Positions 29,095-50,471 of a stretch of 64,000 nt of DNA are shown piece by piece; the stretch's first letter is position 1, and every line of letters begins with the position of its first letter. The position numbers and the translations under genes are program-made. Origin of the DNA: Acidimicrobiia bacterium (GTDB lineage: Bacteria; Actinomycetota; Acidimicrobiia; Acidimicrobiales; Acidimicrobilacustridaceae). The stretch is from NCBI GenBank assembly GCA_020832495.1, contig JAFIEP010000101.1, forward strand, positions 1-64,000, in the 5' to 3' direction. A model generated the notes under the pieces. It made no database searches and was not told the DNA's origin. It was given only the letters and a program-made list of their open reading frames with translations.

Positions 29095-29532
29095 TCAGCA
29101 CCCGAGCTGCGATCGCAACGGCGCAGGGAGCCGCTCGTCGGCGCAGGCTGCCGCCACCTCCGACATTGATGCCAGGACCGGCTCATCGCCCGGCTCCACG
29201 AGGAGCACCACCAGGTTGGCGGGCGAGCGCACCGTCCCCCACAACCCGTGCTCTGTGCAGCCGTGGGCCGCCACGACCTCGCCGACGTCGAGCGCACCAC
29301 GATCCTCGTGGTCCAGCCAGGCCGCAGCAACGGTGGCTGCCATGGCCGGTGGGTCGACGGGCTCCTCTCCGCCCTCGCAGCTCGCGAGCAGCGCGGCGGA
29401 CGCTTCCGGTGTGGTGATCGGCTCGTCGCCGCCCGTGGCACCGCACGACGCCGCTCCCAGCACCAGCACCAGCACCAGTAGGACACCCAACCAACCGTTC
29501 GCCCTGCGAGGGACGCCTCCCGAGGGGCTCAT
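29095..29532 (-). CDS. Small secreted lipoprotein of unknown function
   Basis: A 145-residue protein with a basic n-region (PRRANGW), a long Leu/Val core and [11 protein letters not shown], a usable lipobox with Ala at -3. The mature part has no recognised domain; it holds three further Cys (in LASCEGG, AHGCTE and VAAACADE) and ends in a fourth, LGC, which could form disulphides outside the membrane. Its ATG overlaps the ruvB TGA (ATGA), so it is translated as the last gene of ruvC-ruvA-ruvB. No homologue family is recognised. The link to a DNA-repair operon is probably positional. Confidence 0.65.
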
Positions 29533-30611
29533 CGGTCGAACAGGGTCGGGTCGTCGGCCAACGAACTCCCGAAGGTGGCGTCAGCCGGTGGGGTCACACC
29601 GAGGTGGTGCCAGGCGGCGGGCGTGGCCACCCGACCGCGCGGGGTGCGGGCCAGCAGGCCCTCTTGGATGAGGAACGGCTCGTAGACGTCCTCCACCGTC
29701 TCGGTGGGCTCCCCCACCGAGATGGCCAGGGTCGACAACCCCACGGGCCCGCCTCCGAAGCGGCGGCAGAGCGCGTCGAGGATGGCGCGGTCCACCTTGT
29801 CGAGGCCCCGCTCGTCCACACCGAACACCGCCAGGCCGTCGCGGGCGGTGTGTTGGTCAATGGTGCCCTCGGCGCGCACCTCGGCGTAGTCCCGGACACG
29901 CCGCAGGAGACGGTTGGCGATCCGCGGGGTGCCACGCGCCCGTCGGGCGATCTCTCGGGCACCGGCCGAGTCGATGCTCACCCCGACGATGTCGGCAGCA
30001 CGCCGCACGATCGCCTGGAGATCGTCGGGGCTGTAGTAGTCCAGTCGAGCGACCAACCCGAAGCGGTCCCGCAGCGGCCCGGTGATGAGCCCGGTGCGGG
30101 TGGTGGCACCGACGAGCGTGAAACGGGGAAGGTCGAGCCGCAGTGAACGGGCCGCCGGACCCTTCCCGAGCACGATGTCGAGTTGGAAGTCCTCCATGGC
30201 GGGATAGAGCACCTCCTCGACGGCACGGGACAGCCGATGGATCTCGTCGATGAACAGCACGTCACCGTCGGTGAGTCGGGTCAGGATGGCGGCGAGGTCA
30301 CCGGCCCGCTCGAGGGCCGGCCCGGACGTGACATGGAGGCCGACACCCATCTCCACGGCGATGATGCCCGCCAGCGTGGTCTTCCCCAGCCCTGGGGGGC
30401 CGGCGAACAACAGGTGGTCAACCGCCTGTGCCCGCCCGTGGGCCGCCTCCAAGATGATGGAGAGATGCTCCTTCAACTCCGCCTGCCCAACGAACTCCGC
30501 CAGGTTCCTCGGACGCAGTCCCGGGTCGTCGGCTGCACCGACGTCGAGATCCTCCTCGGCCGGGTTGGGGTCGAGGAGGTCGCGCTCGGCGAACTCATCG
30601 CCGCCGCTCAC
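29529..30611 (-). CDS. ruvB: Holliday junction branch-migration ATPase RuvB
   Basis: A 360-residue AAA+ motor that drives branch migration at RuvA-bound Holliday junctions. Landmarks are [19 protein letters not shown], Walker [12 protein letters not shown], Walker [11 protein letters not shown], sensor 1 [20 protein letters not shown], sensor 2 [16 protein letters not shown] and the C-terminal winged helix with [19 protein letters not shown] 30611 overlaps the ruvA TGA (GTGA); the frame stays open to 31376 but that is a shadow of ruvA. The N-terminal ~20 acidic residues before the AAA+ core are of normal length. Operon order ruvC-ruvA-ruvB is that of other actinobacteria. Confidence 0.97.
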
Positions 30612-31204
30612 GACGACCCCAGTCGCACCAGCGCCTGACGCAGGAGTACCTGCGCATCGTCGGACCCGTCGGCGCCCTCGAGGGCGGCAGCGACCTCGTC
30701 GGGTCCGTAACCCAGGTTGGCCAGGGCCGCCCGCACGTCGTCGTGTGCCGCGTTGGTGCCGACCACCGCCACCGGTTCGTCCCCCGGTGTGCCACCGACC
30801 ACGTCCGCCAGGCGAGGACGCAGGTCGATCAGCAACCGCTGGGCCGTCTTCTTCCCCACACCCGGCACCTGACACAGCCCGGCCAGGTCTTCGTCGGCCA
30901 CCACACGTTGCAGGGCGGCGGGGGGATGTACGGCCAGGATGGCCTGGGCCAATGCCGGGCCCACACCGTGGGCGGCCAGGAGCACCTCGAAGCAGCGCAG
31001 TTCCTCGACGGTGGCGAACCCGAACAGCGTGCGAGCATCCTCTCGCACGTGGTCGTGGACGTAGACGAACACCTCGGTGCCCGCCTCGCCCAACTCCAGC
31101 GACGTCGTCGGTCCGACCACCACCCGGTGCCCGAGCCCGGCCACCTCGATCAACACCTCGTTGCCCCACCGCTCGGTGAGGGTGCCCCGCAGCGATCCGA
31201 TCAC
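30608..31204 (-). CDS. ruvA: Holliday junction DNA-binding protein RuvA
   Basis: A 198-residue protein that forms the tetrameric platform on Holliday junctions and recruits RuvB. Domain I begins [30 protein letters not shown] (OB-fold); domain II has two helix-hairpin-helix elements, [18 protein letters not shown] and [23 protein letters not shown]; a flexible linker leads to domain III ([21 protein letters not shown]), which contacts RuvB. The GTG start overlaps the ruvC stop, and its stop overlaps the ruvB start, so the three are translationally coupled. Confidence 0.97.
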
Positions 31205-31803
31205 CGGCCGTCCCCGTTGCCCGGTGTTTCCGGCCGTCGGCGGACACGGTTGCGCACCGCCCCGCCGACGGGAGCGAGCCGCTCGGCAGTGATCGTCGCC
31301 GCCCCGCCACCGCGACCGGCGCCGGCCAACGGACCCCCGGCCACGGCCACGTGACAGAGGGCCACCGCAGCGGCATCAGCGGCGTCGGCCGGTCGTGGAA
31401 CGGCGTCGAGGCCCAGCAACACCCGCACCATCTCGCCCACCTGGTCCTTCGGTGCCCCGCCCCAACCGCCGACGGCCGCCTTCACCTCGTTGGGCGAGTA
31501 CTCCACCACTTCGGCCCCCCGGCCGGCCGCCTCGGCCATCACGACACCGCTCGCCTGACCCACCGACATGGCAGTGCGGACGTTCACCCCGAACAGGACG
31601 CGCTCCACGGCCACGGCCACCGGGCGGTGTTCGGCCATGAGCGCTCGAAAGCTCTGCTGGACCTGCGCCAGACGCCGGGCGACCGGGTCGGCCGGGTCGG
31701 TGCGAACCACCCCGATGGCCACGGCGCGCGTCGACCCGCGGTCGTGAGCGACCACCGCATAGCCACAGCGCGACAAGCCCGGATCCACACCCAGCACGAA
31801 CAC
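31201..31803 (-). CDS. ruvC: Holliday junction endonuclease RuvC
   Basis: A 200-residue resolvase, slightly longer than the usual 170-190 because of a basic C-terminal tail. The RNase H-like core has the catalytic Asp in [16 protein letters not shown], the Glu in [24 protein letters not shown], and the Asp pair in [15 protein letters not shown]. It cuts Holliday junctions held by RuvAB. GTG 31803 is chosen because TAGGGT lies seven bases before it and the protein then starts directly at the first beta-strand; the frame extends to 31968 but is not conserved-looking. First gene of the ruvCAB operon. Confidence 0.95.
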
Positions 31804-33738: not shown

Positions 33739-33810
33739 TCAGTGGTTCGCCCAGACTCAGTGGTTCGCCCAGACTCAGTTGTCCGCCCAGGCTCAGTGGT
33801 TCGCCGAGGC
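33739..33810. repeat. 18-bp tandem repeat, four copies, overlapping the peroxiredoxin 3' end
   Basis: Unit TCAGTGGTTCGCCCAGAC. Copies start at 33739, 33757, 33775 and 33793; the first two are identical, the third differs at three positions and the fourth, inside the coding region, at two. On the minus strand every copy contains an in-frame TGA at the same place, so the end of the gene (codons for Ala-Asn-His-stop) is followed by three more stop-bearing copies. Confidence 0.9.
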
Positions 33811-34272
33811 CTCCCGCACCGCCTCCACGATCTCCTCGGTCGGACGGAAGGTGAGCCCGGCGGTGGAGCGGTGGGCGTAGCGCACCACACCGGCAGCGTC
33901 GATGACGAACACGCTCCGCCGGTAGAAGCCGAGCGGTCCCAGCGTGCCGAAGGCCTCCGCAGCCTCGCGTTCGGTGTCGGCGAGCAACGGGAAGGCGAAC
34001 CCCCCGTTGGCGGCGGCGAAGCGCTCGTGGTCCTCCACCGACTGCGGGCTCAGGGCCAGCACCTGCGCGCCGACCTTCTCGAACTGCGAGATGTCCGCCG
34101 TGTAGCTCATCAGCTGCACCGTGCACACCGGTGAGGCGTCCGCCGGGTAGAACGCCAGCACCACTGGTTGACCGCGGTACTCGCTGAGTCGGAACCGGCG
34201 GCGGGTCCCTGGATCCCCCTCGGTACCTTCCAGGTCGATCTCGGGTGCGAGGACACCTCGACTGAGGGTCAC
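33793..34272 (-). CDS. bcp: Peroxiredoxin, one-Cys Bcp/AhpC-TSA type
   Basis: A 159-residue thioredoxin-fold peroxidase. FRLSEYRGQPVVLAFYPADASPVCTVQL carries the peroxidatic Cys (about residue 50) in the P-V-C-T context, with the supporting Arg in FYRRSVFVIDAAG. This is the only cysteine in the protein, so no internal resolving Cys exists and reduction must come from an external thiol; mycothiol is a fair candidate because mshC is in the window. It removes hydrogen or organic peroxides in the cytoplasm. The GTG start is three bases downstream of the yebC stop, in the pdxS-pdxT-yebC direction. Its last codons belong to an 18-bp tandem repeat. Confidence 0.88.
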   Translation of the reverse strand: MTLSRGVLAPEIDLEGTEGDPGTRRRFRLSEYRGQPVVLAFYPADASPVCTVQLMSYTADISQFEKVGAQVLALSPQSVEDHERFAAANGGFAFPLLADTEREAAEAFGTLGPLGFYRRSVFVIDAAGVVRYAHRSTAGLTFRPTEEIVEAVREASANH

Positions 34273-34275
34273 TGC

Positions 34276-37908: not shown

Positions 37909-39039
37909 TCACTCCCCACCGTCGCCGACGGCCGCCGCAGACTCGACGATGGTTGCTTCGGCGTCGGTCGGCAGGAGCAGCACCCAGGTGGTTCCGGGAC
38001 GGAGCGACACCGGATCCCCGGCCACGTCGGTGAGCGCCGCCGGCTGATCCAGGTCGCTGCGGGACCACCGGCCCTCGACCAGTTGCTCAGCGGTGAGGAT
38101 CCACGCCGCCCCACCCGCCGCATCGACCAGCCGCGCCTCGGGTACCAGTGCCCCGGCGGAGTCCCGGATACCGGTGTCCTCGTAGTCGACGAAGAGCACC
38201 ACCACGTTCTGTGGCGCCACCACCAGGTCCTCTTCGTCGACGTGGGGTGTGGGTTCTGACGCCCCACCGCCCGCACCGCCACCTTGACGGCGAGCCCACC
38301 CCGCTCGCTCCTCGTCCCACTCGTGAGTCACGAGCACACCGCCCGAGCCGAACCGGACGCTGATCCCCTCGATGGGACGAGCGTCGGACGTACCGGGGGC
38401 ATCGGCGCTGTAGGCGAACTGCGGCTCGGGCGGGGGGCCGTCAGCCACCGGGAGTGCCCACAACAACCCAGTGGACGTGAACAGGTCCTCCGGCGCGCGA
38501 CGCTCGGGACGCCGCTCGTACGCCTCCGGTGCCACCCCCACCCCGGCGTCCACCAGGGGGCCGCTGCGGATCATGGCCAGGAAGGTGTCGTTGGCGCCAC
38601 TGAAGGCGAACAGCGGGTCGTTGAACGACGCCACGATCTCGATGTCGGTGCTGCGCCCCGAACGCACCGGGCCGATCGCCGCAGCATCCGTCGAGTGGTA
38701 CACGGCGGCGAACCGGGTGATCGAACCCTCGACCAGTTCCTCGAACACGATGTCGGCCTCGGCCAGGCCGGCCTGCGGACGGGCGCGTCCGTCGTTGTTG
38801 TCGATCTTGACCACCAGCGCCGGCCGTTCCAGCGCGGTGTCGACCTCGAGTCCGGTCAGCGGGGCGACGACGGGTATCGCCTCGGTGGTGGTCGGCGACA
38901 CCACGTCGGCGTCACTGTCGTCACCGCCCGAACACGACGCGGCGACCAGCACGGCGACGGCTGCCACCCAACCGATCGTTCTCGTCCGCGGACCCCGTGG
39001 GGACGTCGTCGGTACACGGTGCCGCATGTGGTGCTCCAT
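37909..39039 (-). CDS. DUF3048 (YerB-like) lipoprotein 2
   Basis: A 376-residue paralogue of the next gene downstream. A basic n-region (RGPRTRTIGW), hydrophobic core and VAASCSGGDDSDAD give a lipoprotein signal. The DUF3048 body repeats the same landmarks: VVKIDNNDGRARPQAGLAEADIVFEELVEGSITRFAAVYHS, IGPVRSGRSTDIEI and NVVVLFVDYEDTGIRDS. ATG 39039 overlaps the htpX TGA by one base (TGATG); a second Met four codons in is an alternative start. Tandem duplication with divergence is clear. Synthesis coupled to the HtpX protease suggests an envelope quality-control or surface role, but no direct evidence is visible. Confidence 0.86.
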   Translation of the reverse strand: MEHHMRHRVPTTSPRGPRTRTIGWVAAVAVLVAASCSGGDDSDADVVSPTTTEAIPVVAPLTGLEVDTALERPALVVKIDNNDGRARPQAGLAEADIVFEELVEGSITRFAAVYHSTDAAAIGPVRSGRSTDIEIVASFNDPLFAFSGANDTFLAMIRSGPLVDAGVGVAPEAYERRPERRAPEDLFTSTGLLWALPVADGPPPEPQFAYSADAPGTSDARPIEGISVRFGSGGVLVTHEWDEERAGWARRQGGGAGGGASEPTPHVDEEDLVVAPQNVVVLFVDYEDTGIRDSAGALVPEARLVDAAGGAAWILTAEQLVEGRWSRSDLDQPAALTDVAGDPVSLRPGTTWVLLLPTDAEATIVESAAAVGDGGE

Positions 39040-39935
39040 CAGAGCTCACGGAGCGCGGCGATGCGCTCCTCGAGGGGTGGGTGGGTGTCGAAGAGATGCG
39101 TCCACTTGCTGGCCGAGCGGGTGTCGTCGCGATGCGGCACCGGTTCCTCGATCCACATGTGTGCCGTTGCCCGGTTGGCCGACTGCACCACCGCAGGGTT
39201 CGCCCGCAGCTTCTCGAGCGCCGAGATGAGCCCCGGCGGGTACCGGGTCATCTCCACCGCCGACATGTCGGCCAGGCTCTCCCGACGTCGACTGACGGCG
39301 AGTTGCAACGCCTTGGCGGCGATCGGTGCGATGGCGATGAGCACCAGGGCCAGGAGCACGATGGGGCCACTGGCACTGTTGCCGCCACCTCGGCGGCCGC
39401 CGCCGAACCACAGCGCCCGGATGCCGACATCAGCGAGCAGCGCCGCCGCCCCCACCATCGTGACGGCCAGGGTCCCCACCAGGATGTCGTAATTCTTGAT
39501 GTGGCTCAGTTCGTGGGCCAGCACCCCTTCGAGTTCCACCCGGTTCATGGTCTCGAGCAGGCCAGTGGTCACGGCGATGGCCGCATGGTTGGGGTTCCGC
39601 CCAGTGGCGAAGGCGTTGGGCGCCGGGTCGGCGATCACGTACAGGCGCGGCTTCGGGAGCCCCGAGGCGATGCAGAGCCCTTCCACCAGGTTGTGGAGCC
39701 GGGCATAGGTCTGCTCGTCGGCCGGTTGCGCACGACTCATGGCCAAGGCGATCGTGTCGGACTTCCAGTACGAGGTGAAGGCCATGGCGCCGGCGACCAC
39801 CACGGCCACCACCAGACCAGCCGGTCCGTAGCCGATCAGGACGTTGAAGGCCACACCGACCAACACGAGGAACACGACGAAGGCCGCCACCAAGAGGGCG
39901 GAACGTCGCTTGTTCTGGGCAACCTGCTCGTACAG
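39039..39935 (-). CDS. htpX: HtpX-like M48 membrane zinc protease, probable CTG start
   Basis: A 298-residue membrane protease. The N-terminus reads (L/M)YEQVAQNKRRSALLVAAFVVFLVLVG, matching the family's MYEQIAxNKRRS opening, but the first codon is CTG (39935). The frame is closed by a TGA seven codons earlier and has no ATG, GTG or TTG until 39893, inside the first helix. GGAG lies ten bases before the CTG. Zinc ligands are HELSH, with the downstream Glu in RRRESLADMSAVEMTRYPPGL; four hydrophobic segments and the TGRNPNHAAIAVTTGLL strand are as expected. HtpX degrades damaged membrane proteins. lemA lies 33 bases upstream, a common partner. Confidence 0.9.
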   Translation of the reverse strand: MYEQVAQNKRRSALLVAAFVVFLVLVGVAFNVLIGYGPAGLVVAVVVAGAMAFTSYWKSDTIALAMSRAQPADEQTYARLHNLVEGLCIASGLPKPRLYVIADPAPNAFATGRNPNHAAIAVTTGLLETMNRVELEGVLAHELSHIKNYDILVGTLAVTMVGAAALLADVGIRALWFGGGRRGGGNSASGPIVLLALVLIAIAPIAAKALQLAVSRRRESLADMSAVEMTRYPPGLISALEKLRANPAVVQSANRATAHMWIEEPVPHRDDTRSASKWTHLFDTHPPLEERIAALREL

Positions 39936-39968
39936 GGCTCTACGACTCCGGCGTCAGCAGCGCACAGA

Positions 39969-40532
39969 TCAGAACTGCACGCGGGGCGCCTCGCGGCTGC
40001 CCTGCTCGGCCTCGAAGAACTCGCGCTGCCCGAAGTTGAACATGTTGGCGATGATCACCGACGGGAACTGCTGGATCTTCGTGTTGTAGGCCCGGACCTG
40101 GTCGTTGTAGAACTGCCGCGCGTAGGCGATCTTGTCCTCCGTGGAGGTCAGCTCTTCTTGGAGCTGGCGGAAGTTCTGATCGGCCTTCAGCGTCGGATAG
40201 GCCTCCTGGAGGGCGAACAGCTTGCTCAGCGCGCCCGTGATCATGTTCTCGGCTTCGGCCTGCTGCTGCGGCGACGACGCCGTCACGCCGGCGTTGCGAG
40301 CGGCGATGACCGCCTCGAGCGTGCCCGACTCGTGCGAGGCATAGCCCTTGACCGTCTCCACCAGGTTGGGGATGAGGTCGTAGCGGCGCTTCAGCTGGAC
40401 GTCGATCTGCGACCAGGCGTTCTCGATGCGGTTCCGCAGCGAGACCAGCCCGTTGTACATGCCGATGACCCACACCGCGAGCAGGATGACGATGAGCACC
40501 AGCACACCGAGCACGATCAGCACAGCATTCAT
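39969..40532 (-). CDS. lemA: LemA-family protein
   Basis: A 187-residue LemA protein. An N-terminal helix (about 4-24, VLIVLGVLVLIVILLAVWVIGMYN) anchors it, with a helical-bundle body outside: NGLVSLRNRIENAWSQIDVQLKRRYDLIPNLVETVKGYASHESGTLEAVIAAR is the family signature. ENMITGALSKLFALQEAYPTLKADQNFRQLQEELTSTEDKIAYARQFYND follows. Function is poorly known; LemA is often next to HtpX and may present substrates or scaffold envelope proteins. ATG 40532 has TAGGGT six bases upstream, so the lemA-htpX-DUF3048-DUF3048 transcript is probably leaderless. Confidence 0.95.
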   Translation of the reverse strand: MNAVLIVLGVLVLIVILLAVWVIGMYNGLVSLRNRIENAWSQIDVQLKRRYDLIPNLVETVKGYASHESGTLEAVIAARNAGVTASSPQQQAEAENMITGALSKLFALQEAYPTLKADQNFRQLQEELTSTEDKIAYARQFYNDQVRAYNTKIQQFPSVIIANMFNFGQREFFEAEQGSREAPRVQF

Positions 40533-47655: not shown

Positions 47656-49602
47656 TCAGACGTGCGCCAGGACGTCGGCGGCCAGCCGGTCCACGAAGTC
47701 GTCCACGTGCACGCCGCGCTCGACCTCGCCACCGCGCGGGTTGACGCCCACGGTGCCGGCGGCCACGTCGTCGTCGCCCACCACCAGCACATAGGGCAAC
47801 TTCTCCATCTTGGCCCGGCGGATGCGAGCCCCCAGCGGCTCGTCGGCGACCACCGTGTCCGCCCGGTAGCCCTCCGCCAGCAGGCGGTCCACCAGGCGGT
47901 CGGCGTACACGTGGTGGTCGGCTCGCACGGGCAGCACCCGCACCTGCACGGGTGCCAGCCAGGCCGGGAAGGCCCCGGCATAGTGCTCGAGCAGCACGGC
48001 GAAGAAGCGTTCCACCGAACCGAACAACGCCCGGTGGATCATGACCGGGCGATGCCGCTCGTTGTCGGCGCCCACGTACTCGAGGCCGAACCGTTGTGGG
48101 AGTTGGAAGTCCAACTGGATGGTGGACATCTGCCAGCTCCGCCCGATGGCGTCGCGCACCTGCACCGACACCTTGGGGCCGTAGAAGGCGCCACCGCCCT
48201 CGTCGAGCACGGGATCGAGGCCCTTGGCCACCGCCGCCCGCCGGAGGATCTCGGTGGCCGTGTCCCATTCCTCCTCTGTGCCGACCGCCTTCTCCGGTGG
48301 CCGGGTGGAGAGCTCCAGCTCGAAGTCGGTGAGGCCGTAGTCGCGCAGGAGCCCCAGCACGAAGTCGAGCGCTCGCGTGATCTCGCCCTCGGCCTGCTCG
48401 TGCGTGCAGAAGATGTGGGCGTCGTCCTGGGCGAAGCCCCGGGCGCGGGTCAGACCGTGCACGACACCCGACTTCTCGTAGCGGTACACCGTGCCGAACT
48501 CGAACATGCGCAACGGCAGGTCGCGGTAGGACCGCAGACGGTTGCGGTAGATCAGGATGTGGAACGGGCAGTTCATCGGCTTGAGGTAGTAGTCGGTGCC
48601 CCCGTCGAGCTCCATCGGGGGATACATCCCGTCGGCGAACCACTCGAGGTGGCCCGACTGCTCGAACAACGCCGACTTCGTGATGTGCGGCGAGTAGACG
48701 AACTCGTAGCCCGCCTGTTCGTGGCGGGTCCGCGAGTAGTCCTCCATGAGCCGGCGCACGAGGCCGCCCTTGGGGTGGAAGACGGCCAGGCCCGAGCCCA
48801 CCTCGTCGGGAAAGGAGAACAGGTCGAGTTCGACGCCGAGCTTGCGGTGATCGCGGGCCTCGGCCTGACGGAGTCGCTCCAGGTGCTCCTCGAGTGCCTT
48901 GGCGCTCTCCCAGGCCGTACCGTAGATGCGCTGCAGCATCGGCCCCTTCTCGTCACCTCGCCAGTAGGCGCCGGCCACCTTCATGAGCTTGAAATGCCCC
49001 AGGCGTCCTGTGGACGGGACATGCGGGCCGCGACACAGGTCCACGAAACCCTCGGTGTTGCGGTACAGGCTGACCGAACCGTCGCCCGCCACCTCGGAGC
49101 TCTCCACCCGTTCGATGATCTCGCGCTTGTAGGGCTGCTCGGCAAACACCTCGAGACCTTCGTCCACCGAGCACTCGGCGCGCACGAACGGCTGGTCGGC
49201 GCCGACGATCTCGCGCATCTTGTCCTCGATGCGCTCGAGGTCGTCCTCGGAGAAGGTCTGCCCGTCGGGCAGTTCGAAGTCGTAGTAGAAGCCGTCGTCG
49301 ATGGCCGGGCCGATGGCGAAGCGAGCACCCGGCCACAGGCTCAACACCGCTTGGGCCAGCACGTGGGCGGTGGAGTGGCGCAGCACCTCGCGGCCTTCGT
49401 CGCTCGCAGCAGTGATGATGCGCACGGCGGCATCCTCGGGCAGGTCACGCGTCAGGTCGCGCTGTTCACCGTCCACCTCGACCACCACGGCGTCGCGGGC
49501 CAGGCGCTTGCCGATCGAGGCGGCCAGATCAGCCCCGGTGCTGCCCGACGGCAAGGACTTGGTGGTTCCGTCGGGCAGGGTCACGCAGATCTCGGCAGGC
49601 AT
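47656..49602 (-). CDS. thrS: Threonyl-tRNA synthetase
   Basis: A 648-residue class-II synthetase. Domains in order: TGS (VTLPDGTTKSLPSGSTGADLAASIG), the TGS-linked editing domain with HSTAHVLAQAVLSLWPGARFAIGPAIDDGFYYDF (zinc-type editing histidines), catalytic core with motif 1 around RTRHEQAGYEFVYSPHI, motif 2 PLRMFEFGTVYRYEKSGVVHGLTRARGFAQDDAHIFC and motif 3, and the anticodon-binding domain. The active-site zinc ligands Cys, His and His are in LKPMNCPFHI and DAHIFC. It charges tRNA-Thr. ATG 49602 is preceded by TACGAT at seven bases, and the HIT gene is coupled downstream. Confidence 0.98.
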   Translation of the reverse strand: MPAEICVTLPDGTTKSLPSGSTGADLAASIGKRLARDAVVVEVDGEQRDLTRDLPEDAAVRIITAASDEGREVLRHSTAHVLAQAVLSLWPGARFAIGPAIDDGFYYDFELPDGQTFSEDDLERIEDKMREIVGADQPFVRAECSVDEGLEVFAEQPYKREIIERVESSEVAGDGSVSLYRNTEGFVDLCRGPHVPSTGRLGHFKLMKVAGAYWRGDEKGPMLQRIYGTAWESAKALEEHLERLRQAEARDHRKLGVELDLFSFPDEVGSGLAVFHPKGGLVRRLMEDYSRTRHEQAGYEFVYSPHITKSALFEQSGHLEWFADGMYPPMELDGGTDYYLKPMNCPFHILIYRNRLRSYRDLPLRMFEFGTVYRYEKSGVVHGLTRARGFAQDDAHIFCTHEQAEGEITRALDFVLGLLRDYGLTDFELELSTRPPEKAVGTEEEWDTATEILRRAAVAKGLDPVLDEGGGAFYGPKVSVQVRDAIGRSWQMSTIQLDFQLPQRFGLEYVGADNERHRPVMIHRALFGSVERFFAVLLEHYAGAFPAWLAPVQVRVLPVRADHHVYADRLVDRLLAEGYRADTVVADEPLGARIRRAKMEKLPYVLVVGDDDVAAGTVGVNPRGGEVERGVHVDDFVDRLAADVLAHV

Positions 49603-49609
49603 GCGGGGG

Positions 49610-49615
49610 ATCGTA
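49610..49615 (-). promoter_or_regulatory. -10 element TACGAT of thrS, leaderless
   Basis: Seven bases before the thrS ATG at 49602. No T-box-like leader is possible with this spacing. Confidence 0.5.
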
Positions 49616-49664
49616 CCGGCCCGCTCAGCGAGCGCCCATCCGGTTGTCCGCGAGACGGACGTGT

Positions 49665-50471
49665 TCAGGAGGCGGATGCGCGCAGCACGTCAGCGGAGGA
49701 TCGCCGTTGCGCCTCGCCGTCGGCCTCGTGGCCGTTGCCCTGTCCGTCCATGGTCGGCACCACGGCGGTGGCCGCCGGCATCCCCTCGGCCGAGTCGGTG
49801 TCGCTGCGCTTGGCGTTGGCGTAGGTGTCCACGTACTCCTGGCCGGTGAGCGACCGGATCTCGTACATGACCTCGTCGGTGATCTGCCGCAGGATGAGCC
49901 GATCGTCGGCTCGGTCGCGGTAACGGGTGACGTCGATGGGACGGCCGAAGCGCACCCGCATCATGTCGAACATCTTCGGCATGCTGCGATCCGGAGGCTG
50001 GACCTCGGCGGTGCCCTGCAGGCCACAGGGGATGATCGGCGCGCCGGTGCGCAGCGCCAGCCGGGCGACCCCCGTGTGGCCCCGGTGCAGGTTGCCGTCA
50101 CGCGAACGGGTGCCCTCGGGGTAGATGCCGAACAGTTCGCCGCTCTCGAGCAGGCGAGCCGCAGCGGACAGCGCTCGGTCGGCCTTCGAGCCGCCACCAC
50201 GGTCGATGGGGATCATCCCGAGCGCCGGGAAGATGTAGCGGGTCTTCCATGAGTCCATGTACTCGGCCTTGCCCACATAGGTGATGCGGCGTGGCAGGGC
50301 CGCCCCCACCACGAAGTGGTCGATGACCGACAGGTGGTTGGGCGCCACGATCGCACCCCCCGAGGTGGGGATGTTCTCGGTGCCTTCCACCTCGATTCGC
50401 CACGCGAACGAGAACGCGGGGCGCAGCACCATCTTGGCGACTGAGTAGAGCTGACCGACCTCGCGGCCCAT
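49665..50471 (-). CDS. PlsC-like 1-acyl-sn-glycerol-3-phosphate acyltransferase
   Basis: A 268-residue acyltransferase of the PlsC family. It has the catalytic NHLSVIDH (N-H-x4-D), the acceptor-binding YPEGTRSRDG and LRTGAPIIPCGLQG. An amphipathic N-terminus (LYSVAKMVLRPAFSFAWRIEV) sits on the membrane. It acylates lysophosphatidic acid to phosphatidic acid, feeding CDP-diacylglycerol to pgsA. ATG 50471 is preceded by GGAGG eight bases upstream. The last ~50 residues (Ala/Asp/Glu-rich) are not part of the domain. 101 bases separate it from mshC in the same orientation. Confidence 0.92.
   Translation of the reverse strand: MGREVGQLYSVAKMVLRPAFSFAWRIEVEGTENIPTSGGAIVAPNHLSVIDHFVVGAALPRRITYVGKAEYMDSWKTRYIFPALGMIPIDRGGGSKADRALSAAARLLESGELFGIYPEGTRSRDGNLHRGHTGVARLALRTGAPIIPCGLQGTAEVQPPDRSMPKMFDMMRVRFGRPIDVTRYRDRADDRLILRQITDEVMYEIRSLTGQEYVDTYANAKRSDTDSAEGMPAATAVVPTMDGQGNGHEADGEAQRRSSADVLRASAS

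Follow-up and report, generated by a model that had tools for sequence, protein, structure and literature searches.

The choice of start codon can set protein dosage at the level of translation, as the AUU start codon of infC does. The start codons of the E. coli lactose operon are described as dosage control of the same kind (PMC11445065). CUG is considered nearly unusable in bacterial initiation: it is reported to yield 0.86% of the output of AUG and to make up 0.024% of annotated bacterial starts (PMC11497404). A mycobacterial leadered selection reports no enrichment of CTG (0.03%; PMC4633059), a chloroplast reporter study mentions lacking GUS expression beside its discussion of CUG (PMC9845219), and a survey of close genomes gives AUG-to-CUG switches at 2 of 61,358 ancestral AUG starts (PMC5622118). 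Herein, we describe an htpX gene in a 64,000-nucleotide stretch of Acidimicrobiia DNA (the window, meaning the whole stretch analysed) that stands second in a lemA-htpX pair and whose translation very probably starts at CTG 39935. In the class, htpX seems to depend on CTG in about one third of high-GC rows (28/78, in a sample led by similarity).

The htpX locus and its start region

The features of the locus are as follows.

39039 to 39935, minus strand: htpX, 298 codons from CTG 39935 plus stop, an M48-type membrane zinc metalloprotease with HELSH (translation, Pfam, NCBIfam)
39933 to 39935, minus strand: proposed CTG start codon, aligned with ATG, GTG and TTG starts in relatives; amino-acid-type constraint starts here
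39946 to 39949, minus strand: GGAG, probable Shine-Dalgarno core (sequence; anti-SD duplex of -6.1 kcal/mol)
39954 to 39956, minus strand: in-frame TGA closing the htpX frame upstream (sequence)
39891 to 39893, minus strand: TTG at residue 15, the first canonical start codon downstream, rejected as main start
39969 to 40532, minus strand: lemA, the upstream gene, with ATG start and TGA stop (Pfam LemA PF04011, 216 bits)

The protein carries an M48 peptidase domain (Pfam PF01435, 113.2 bits against a cut-off of 20.3), and the HExxH zinc motif is present as HELSH. The best NCBIfam HtpX model, NF003425, aligned with residues 1–297 at 326.3 bits. Since this score lies under the naming cut-off of 355, the protein is an HtpX-type homologue and not a certified equivalog.

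The first-pass annotation had proposed CTG 39935 as the probable start, in order to retain the opening YEQVAQNKRRS. Reading of the minus strand from 39956 to 39936 gives TGA CGC CGG AGT CGT AGA GCC, followed by CTG (39935–39933) and then by TAC GAG CAG GTT GCC CAG AAC AAG CGA CGT TCC, so the frame does encode this opening and is closed upstream by the TGA. None of the six sense codons between TGA and CTG is ATG, GTG or TTG. The GGAG at 39949–39946 lies 10 bases 5' of the CTG, as had been claimed, and the lemA stop lies 33 nt from it. The first canonical codon was correctly given as 39893; it is the TTG of residue 15, at the beginning of the first membrane helix. A mechanical ORF caller places the htpX start there.

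The start column in relatives

HtpX loci were gathered by translated search at the family, order, class and phylum levels and from named contigs. Sampling followed similarity to the window protein, and only part of the matches was fetched. After removal of duplicates 232 rows were available, of which 210 reach ≥45% and 152 reach ≥55% identity; 22 loci were dropped, their alignments starting past residue 12 or running off the end. In the 152 distinct sequences, the codon aligned to 39935 was ATG in 63, CTG in 32, GTG in 29, TTG in 13 and another codon in 15; the column was thus NTG in 137/152 rows. The comparison of htpX starts in Acidimicrobiia proposed by the first-pass annotation finds ATG, GTG or TTG in class relatives at exactly this codon, and no different N-terminus was seen among close relatives. 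Fourteen of the 15 non-NTG rows have a canonical in-frame codon 1–15 codons upstream and hence a slightly longer N-terminus. The remaining one, L184 (genome G419), has ATC at the column and no ATG, GTG or TTG across the 91 codons back to the stop, and is a candidate AUC start.

CTG occupied the start column in 34/210 rows at ≥45% identity. In 27 of these 34 an upstream in-frame stop is reached without an intervening ATG, GTG or TTG. Six have a canonical in-frame codon upstream, at five codons in L164 and at ≥13 codons in the other five, and one has no canonical codon in a frame that stays open to the end of the stretch. A canonical codon within 1–15 codons upstream was found in 3/34 CTG rows (L072, L029, L164), against 14/15 of the rows with other codons. 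The same-family relative in genome G017, represented by L032 and L164, seems to be frameshifted: the L032 match covers 896 bases, the open gene of L164 only 64 codons, and the upstream codon in L164 is a TTG.

By kinship, CTG was found in the window itself, in 6/7 rows of the same family (the seventh, L077, carries GGC there), in 19/74 of the same order and in 7/46 of the same class; it was found in 1/25 named contigs and in 0/57 rows from other classes of the phylum. The single-gene CTG start put forward by the first-pass annotation is, as a putative start, a recurrent property across the class. A sequencing or assembly error that conceals an ATG or GTG might be suspected in a 147-contig assembly. 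However, CTG stands at the same codon in 33 further distinct rows, six of them from the same family, which makes the lone error envisaged by the first-pass annotation very unlikely, and we give this reading practically no weight.

If the CTG were an ordinary internal leucine codon, other leucine codons should occupy the column as well. The expectation was taken from the internal leucine codons of the same genes, and the test was not conditioned on CTG. Only 2 of the 47 Leu-type codons at the column did not end in TG, against an expected fraction of 0.497 (P = 1e-11). CTC makes up 39% of internal leucine codons in htpX genes; at the column it occurs in the two exceptions, which have an ATG two codons or a GTG six codons upstream. 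This excess of TG-ending codons argues that the CTG is a start. The onset of constraint points to the same codon. Pairwise comparison of 32 CTG genes gave differences of 0.23, 0.12 and 0.37 at positions 1, 2 and 3 of codons 2–12, and of 0.69, 0.69 and 0.68 in the 33 nt upstream. The drop past the CTG indicates that selection on the amino acids begins there. The window gene has these sequence features of a CTG-initiated gene: its CTG is aligned to the canonical starts of orthologues, no other in-frame start precedes it before the upstream stop, and coding constraint sets in at it.

The same observations bear on two other positions for the start. Initiation at TTG 39893 or GTG 39890 would use a canonical codon, the former being the one that mechanical calling selects, and would give a product without its first 14 residues, the codons upstream being an untranslated relic. 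But codons 2–12 are under amino-acid-type constraint in the CTG genes, the anti-SD duplex is weak at both codons (-2.0 kcal/mol, compared with -6.1 at the CTG), and the next canonical codon shifts between the 13th and the 42nd codon among the 34 CTG rows. A downstream start is accordingly improbable. Initiation could also lie upstream, for example at GTG 39965, with readthrough or recoding of the TGA, or ribosomes could frameshift out of lemA; GTG 39965 shares the frame of TGA 39954–39956, and lemA ends only 33 nt ahead of the CTG. Yet none of the three codon positions is constrained in the stretch upstream, the upstream stops vary in place and type among relatives, and the column keeps NTG, although an internal leucine would not require it. 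This route is scarcely credible, and CTG 39935 is retained as the start.

Among high-GC NTG rows (GC3 ≥ 0.85), CTG was found in 28/78 inside the class and in 0/22 outside it (p = 0.0003). A tree was built by a quick method from 134 rows, after removal of 3 rows that were too short and of the 15 with a codon other than NTG. On this tree CTG, TTG, GTG and ATG are intermixed. At least 14 changes between CTG and non-CTG are required, 8 of them forced by starred branches, and the window's family, present with five rows, makes up a single CTG group (SH-aLRT 96). Five records titled Bifidobacterium breve or Acidobacteria (L033, L034, L068, L053, L063) have an htpX that falls among Acidimicrobiia-side sequences and seem to be mislabelled; L063 sits on a long branch, and its placement is unsure.

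Control genes and the origin of the CTG

Control genes were sampled in 30 genomes picked for CTG at the htpX start. CTG stood at the start column in 0/26 ruvA, 0/26 recR, 1/29 pimA and 3/27 trmD rows. The pimA row has an ATG directly upstream. The three trmD candidates (L293, L300, L315) are preceded in frame by a GTG or TTG, at a distance of 13, 3 and 15 codons, and were set aside as CTG starts; the same rule applied to htpX would make three htpX rows ambiguous. L306 and L313, counted among the 27 trmD rows, are false matches to the motif; where a trmD, recR or ruvC row shows another codon, the gene mostly begins elsewhere. A further motif scan found CTG at the start column in 0/29 ruvC, 0/21 rpsP and 0/4 yebC rows. 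Since ruvA, recR, pimA and trmD show no CTG start without an upstream alternative, the habit looks largely specific to htpX.

The neighbouring lemA was also considered. Where the lemA alignment of a CTG-htpX locus began by residue 10, an ATG or GTG was present no more than 4 codons from the aligned lemA start (28/28). Over all 198 lemA loci, a canonical codon was present near the alignment start in 143 and absent in 55, the latter including stretches that end short of the beginning of lemA. Syntenic families were surveyed as well: the eight that were resolved had CTG at 0/65 codons, and at least three of their columns look doubtful (29532–31481, 33796–34275, 47659–49689); 13/21 families, htpX and lemA included, were unresolved. 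As the survey needs 60% canonical codons, it cannot detect families with frequent CTG.

An automatic family survey, in which 5 families passed the filter, some of them shadow frames, turned up one further case in the window's genome. A DUF2469 gene behind rplS (L296, G000:C13, reverse strand) probably starts at a CTG that shares bases with the rplS stop (CTGA); AAGGAG precedes this CTG, and the frame upstream holds no canonical start. The aligned start column of DUF2469 in 20 rows was GTG in 9, ATG in 8, and TTG, CTG and TCC in one each. CTG is concentrated in htpX among the few genes tested, and such putative starts may not be confined to htpX.

The CTG start could have arisen as a relic of a second codon, if the Met codon of an ancestral M-L-Y-E-Q disappeared and the Leu2 codon took over initiation. 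Translation would still begin at CTG, by another origin. Such a history would account for the excess of CTG and TTG, and two observations favour it: position 2 of the NF003425 model is aligned with residue 1, and TTG makes up 13/53 of the ATG, GTG and TTG starts in high-GC htpX compared with 4/91 in controls (p = 0.0007; controls counted without false trmD matches, rows starting elsewhere and four CTG candidates). Against it, an ATG directly before a column CTG or TTG occurs in none of the aligned rows shown, and the four codons are mixed on the tree. We consider this origin unlikely, and favour interchange of the start codon itself.

Candidate factors, proposed mechanism and comparison with known systems

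Next, we considered factors that could set CTG-htpX genes apart. The normal initiator tRNA anticodon stem-loop, GGGCTCATAACCC, was present in 20/30 CTG-htpX genomes, the window's own included. A loose search of the other ten gave a match in 7, and most of the stems matched there we take to be elongator-type. With the normal stem-loop in 20/30 genomes, a variant initiator tRNA with an M1-like anticodon-stem change was rejected as the general cause; a change of this type is reported to lose discrimination against CUG (PMC11497404). One further stem among these matches, AGG/CCT in genome G490, is initiator-like; the htpX row of this genome, L170, has a CTG that runs into the stop codon of lemA (TTCTGA).

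The Shine-Dalgarno interaction, for which the anti-SD UCACCUCCUU is given for Acidimicrobiia (PMC10783764), was stronger at CTG than at ATG starts when GC was not controlled for (p = 0.0007). With the comparison restricted to high-GC genes the difference was gone (p = 0.30), so that Shine-Dalgarno compensation at CTG starts is no more than a possibility. RNA structure in the start region of high-GC genes differed little (CTG -15.7, ATG -15.8, GTG -15.5, TTG -17.1). The distance to lemA overlapped between start types, ranging from -4 to 72 nt among 31 CTG rows and from -1 to 85 nt among 62 ATG rows, and closer lemA spacing was rejected as a mark of CTG genes. Translational coupling of lemA and htpX is plausible from the spacings of the CTG rows, although ATG genes are spaced similarly.

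Pure mutation bias was rejected as well. In the two richest GC3 bins, fourfold sites hold about 0.5 C and about 0.42 G, with A and T at a few percent each, while the htpX starts in these bins (n = 59) were CTG in 23, ATG in 14, GTG in 12 and TTG in 10. Given this mismatch, the first base is not simply neutral, although CTG rises with GC.

What the sequences show is the start column, the recurrence of CTG there and its excess in htpX relative to the control genes; the course of initiation is a proposal. The 30S subunit would be positioned by the GGAG, and ribosomes terminating lemA 33 nt upstream would perhaps supply the htpX start too. Most likely, ordinary fMet-tRNA would read the CTG with a first-position mismatch, pairing through the second and third bases. 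The product, predicted to begin fMet-YEQVAQNKRRS, would keep its charged segment in front of the first membrane helix. Over the class, htpX start codons interchange A, G, T and C at their first base, CTG having been gained or lost several times, and a weak start would be tolerated or favoured because little HtpX is needed.

Why such a start should be tolerated or preferred can be answered only tentatively. The leading suggestion, which we hold as a possibility, is that a weak start limits the dosage of a membrane protease. In Acidimicrobiia, selection could conceivably keep htpX on weak YTG starts, CTG above all, with CUG initiation working better than in E. coli or mycobacteria. The habit might then be a gene-specific means of keeping a membrane protease scarce, or of tying its synthesis to lemA translation or to initiation stringency, but we advance this with considerable reserve. 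If the measured CUG efficiencies held here, HtpX production would be very low; either this is acceptable, or these bacteria read CUG better.

If the CTG start is true, gene finders that ignore CTG would leave 12 to 41 residues off the HtpX-type protease of such genomes. The true beginning of htpX may often be missed in annotations, many related bacteria seemingly sharing the CTG. The clade would also be a natural test of bacterial CUG initiation and of why one gene tolerates it.

Among the literature matches listed, no paper describes a conserved CTG start in htpX; most subscription journals lay outside the coverage. The window gene shares with HtpX-type M48 membrane metalloproteases the M48 peptidase domain, the HELSH motif, the N-terminal YEQ-NKRRS opening and the membrane helix after it; it differs in its start codon and in scoring under the NCBIfam HtpX equivalog naming cut-offs. 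With start codons that act as dosage control it would have in common a weak start that could give low or adjustable output. With bacterial CUG initiation, as described in PMC11497404, it shares the codon class and would share reading by initiator tRNA with a first-position mismatch; the efficiency reported for such initiation is very low. In conclusion, CTG initiation is already known in bacteria, as rare cases; the new part is its apparent recurrent use at one gene across a class.
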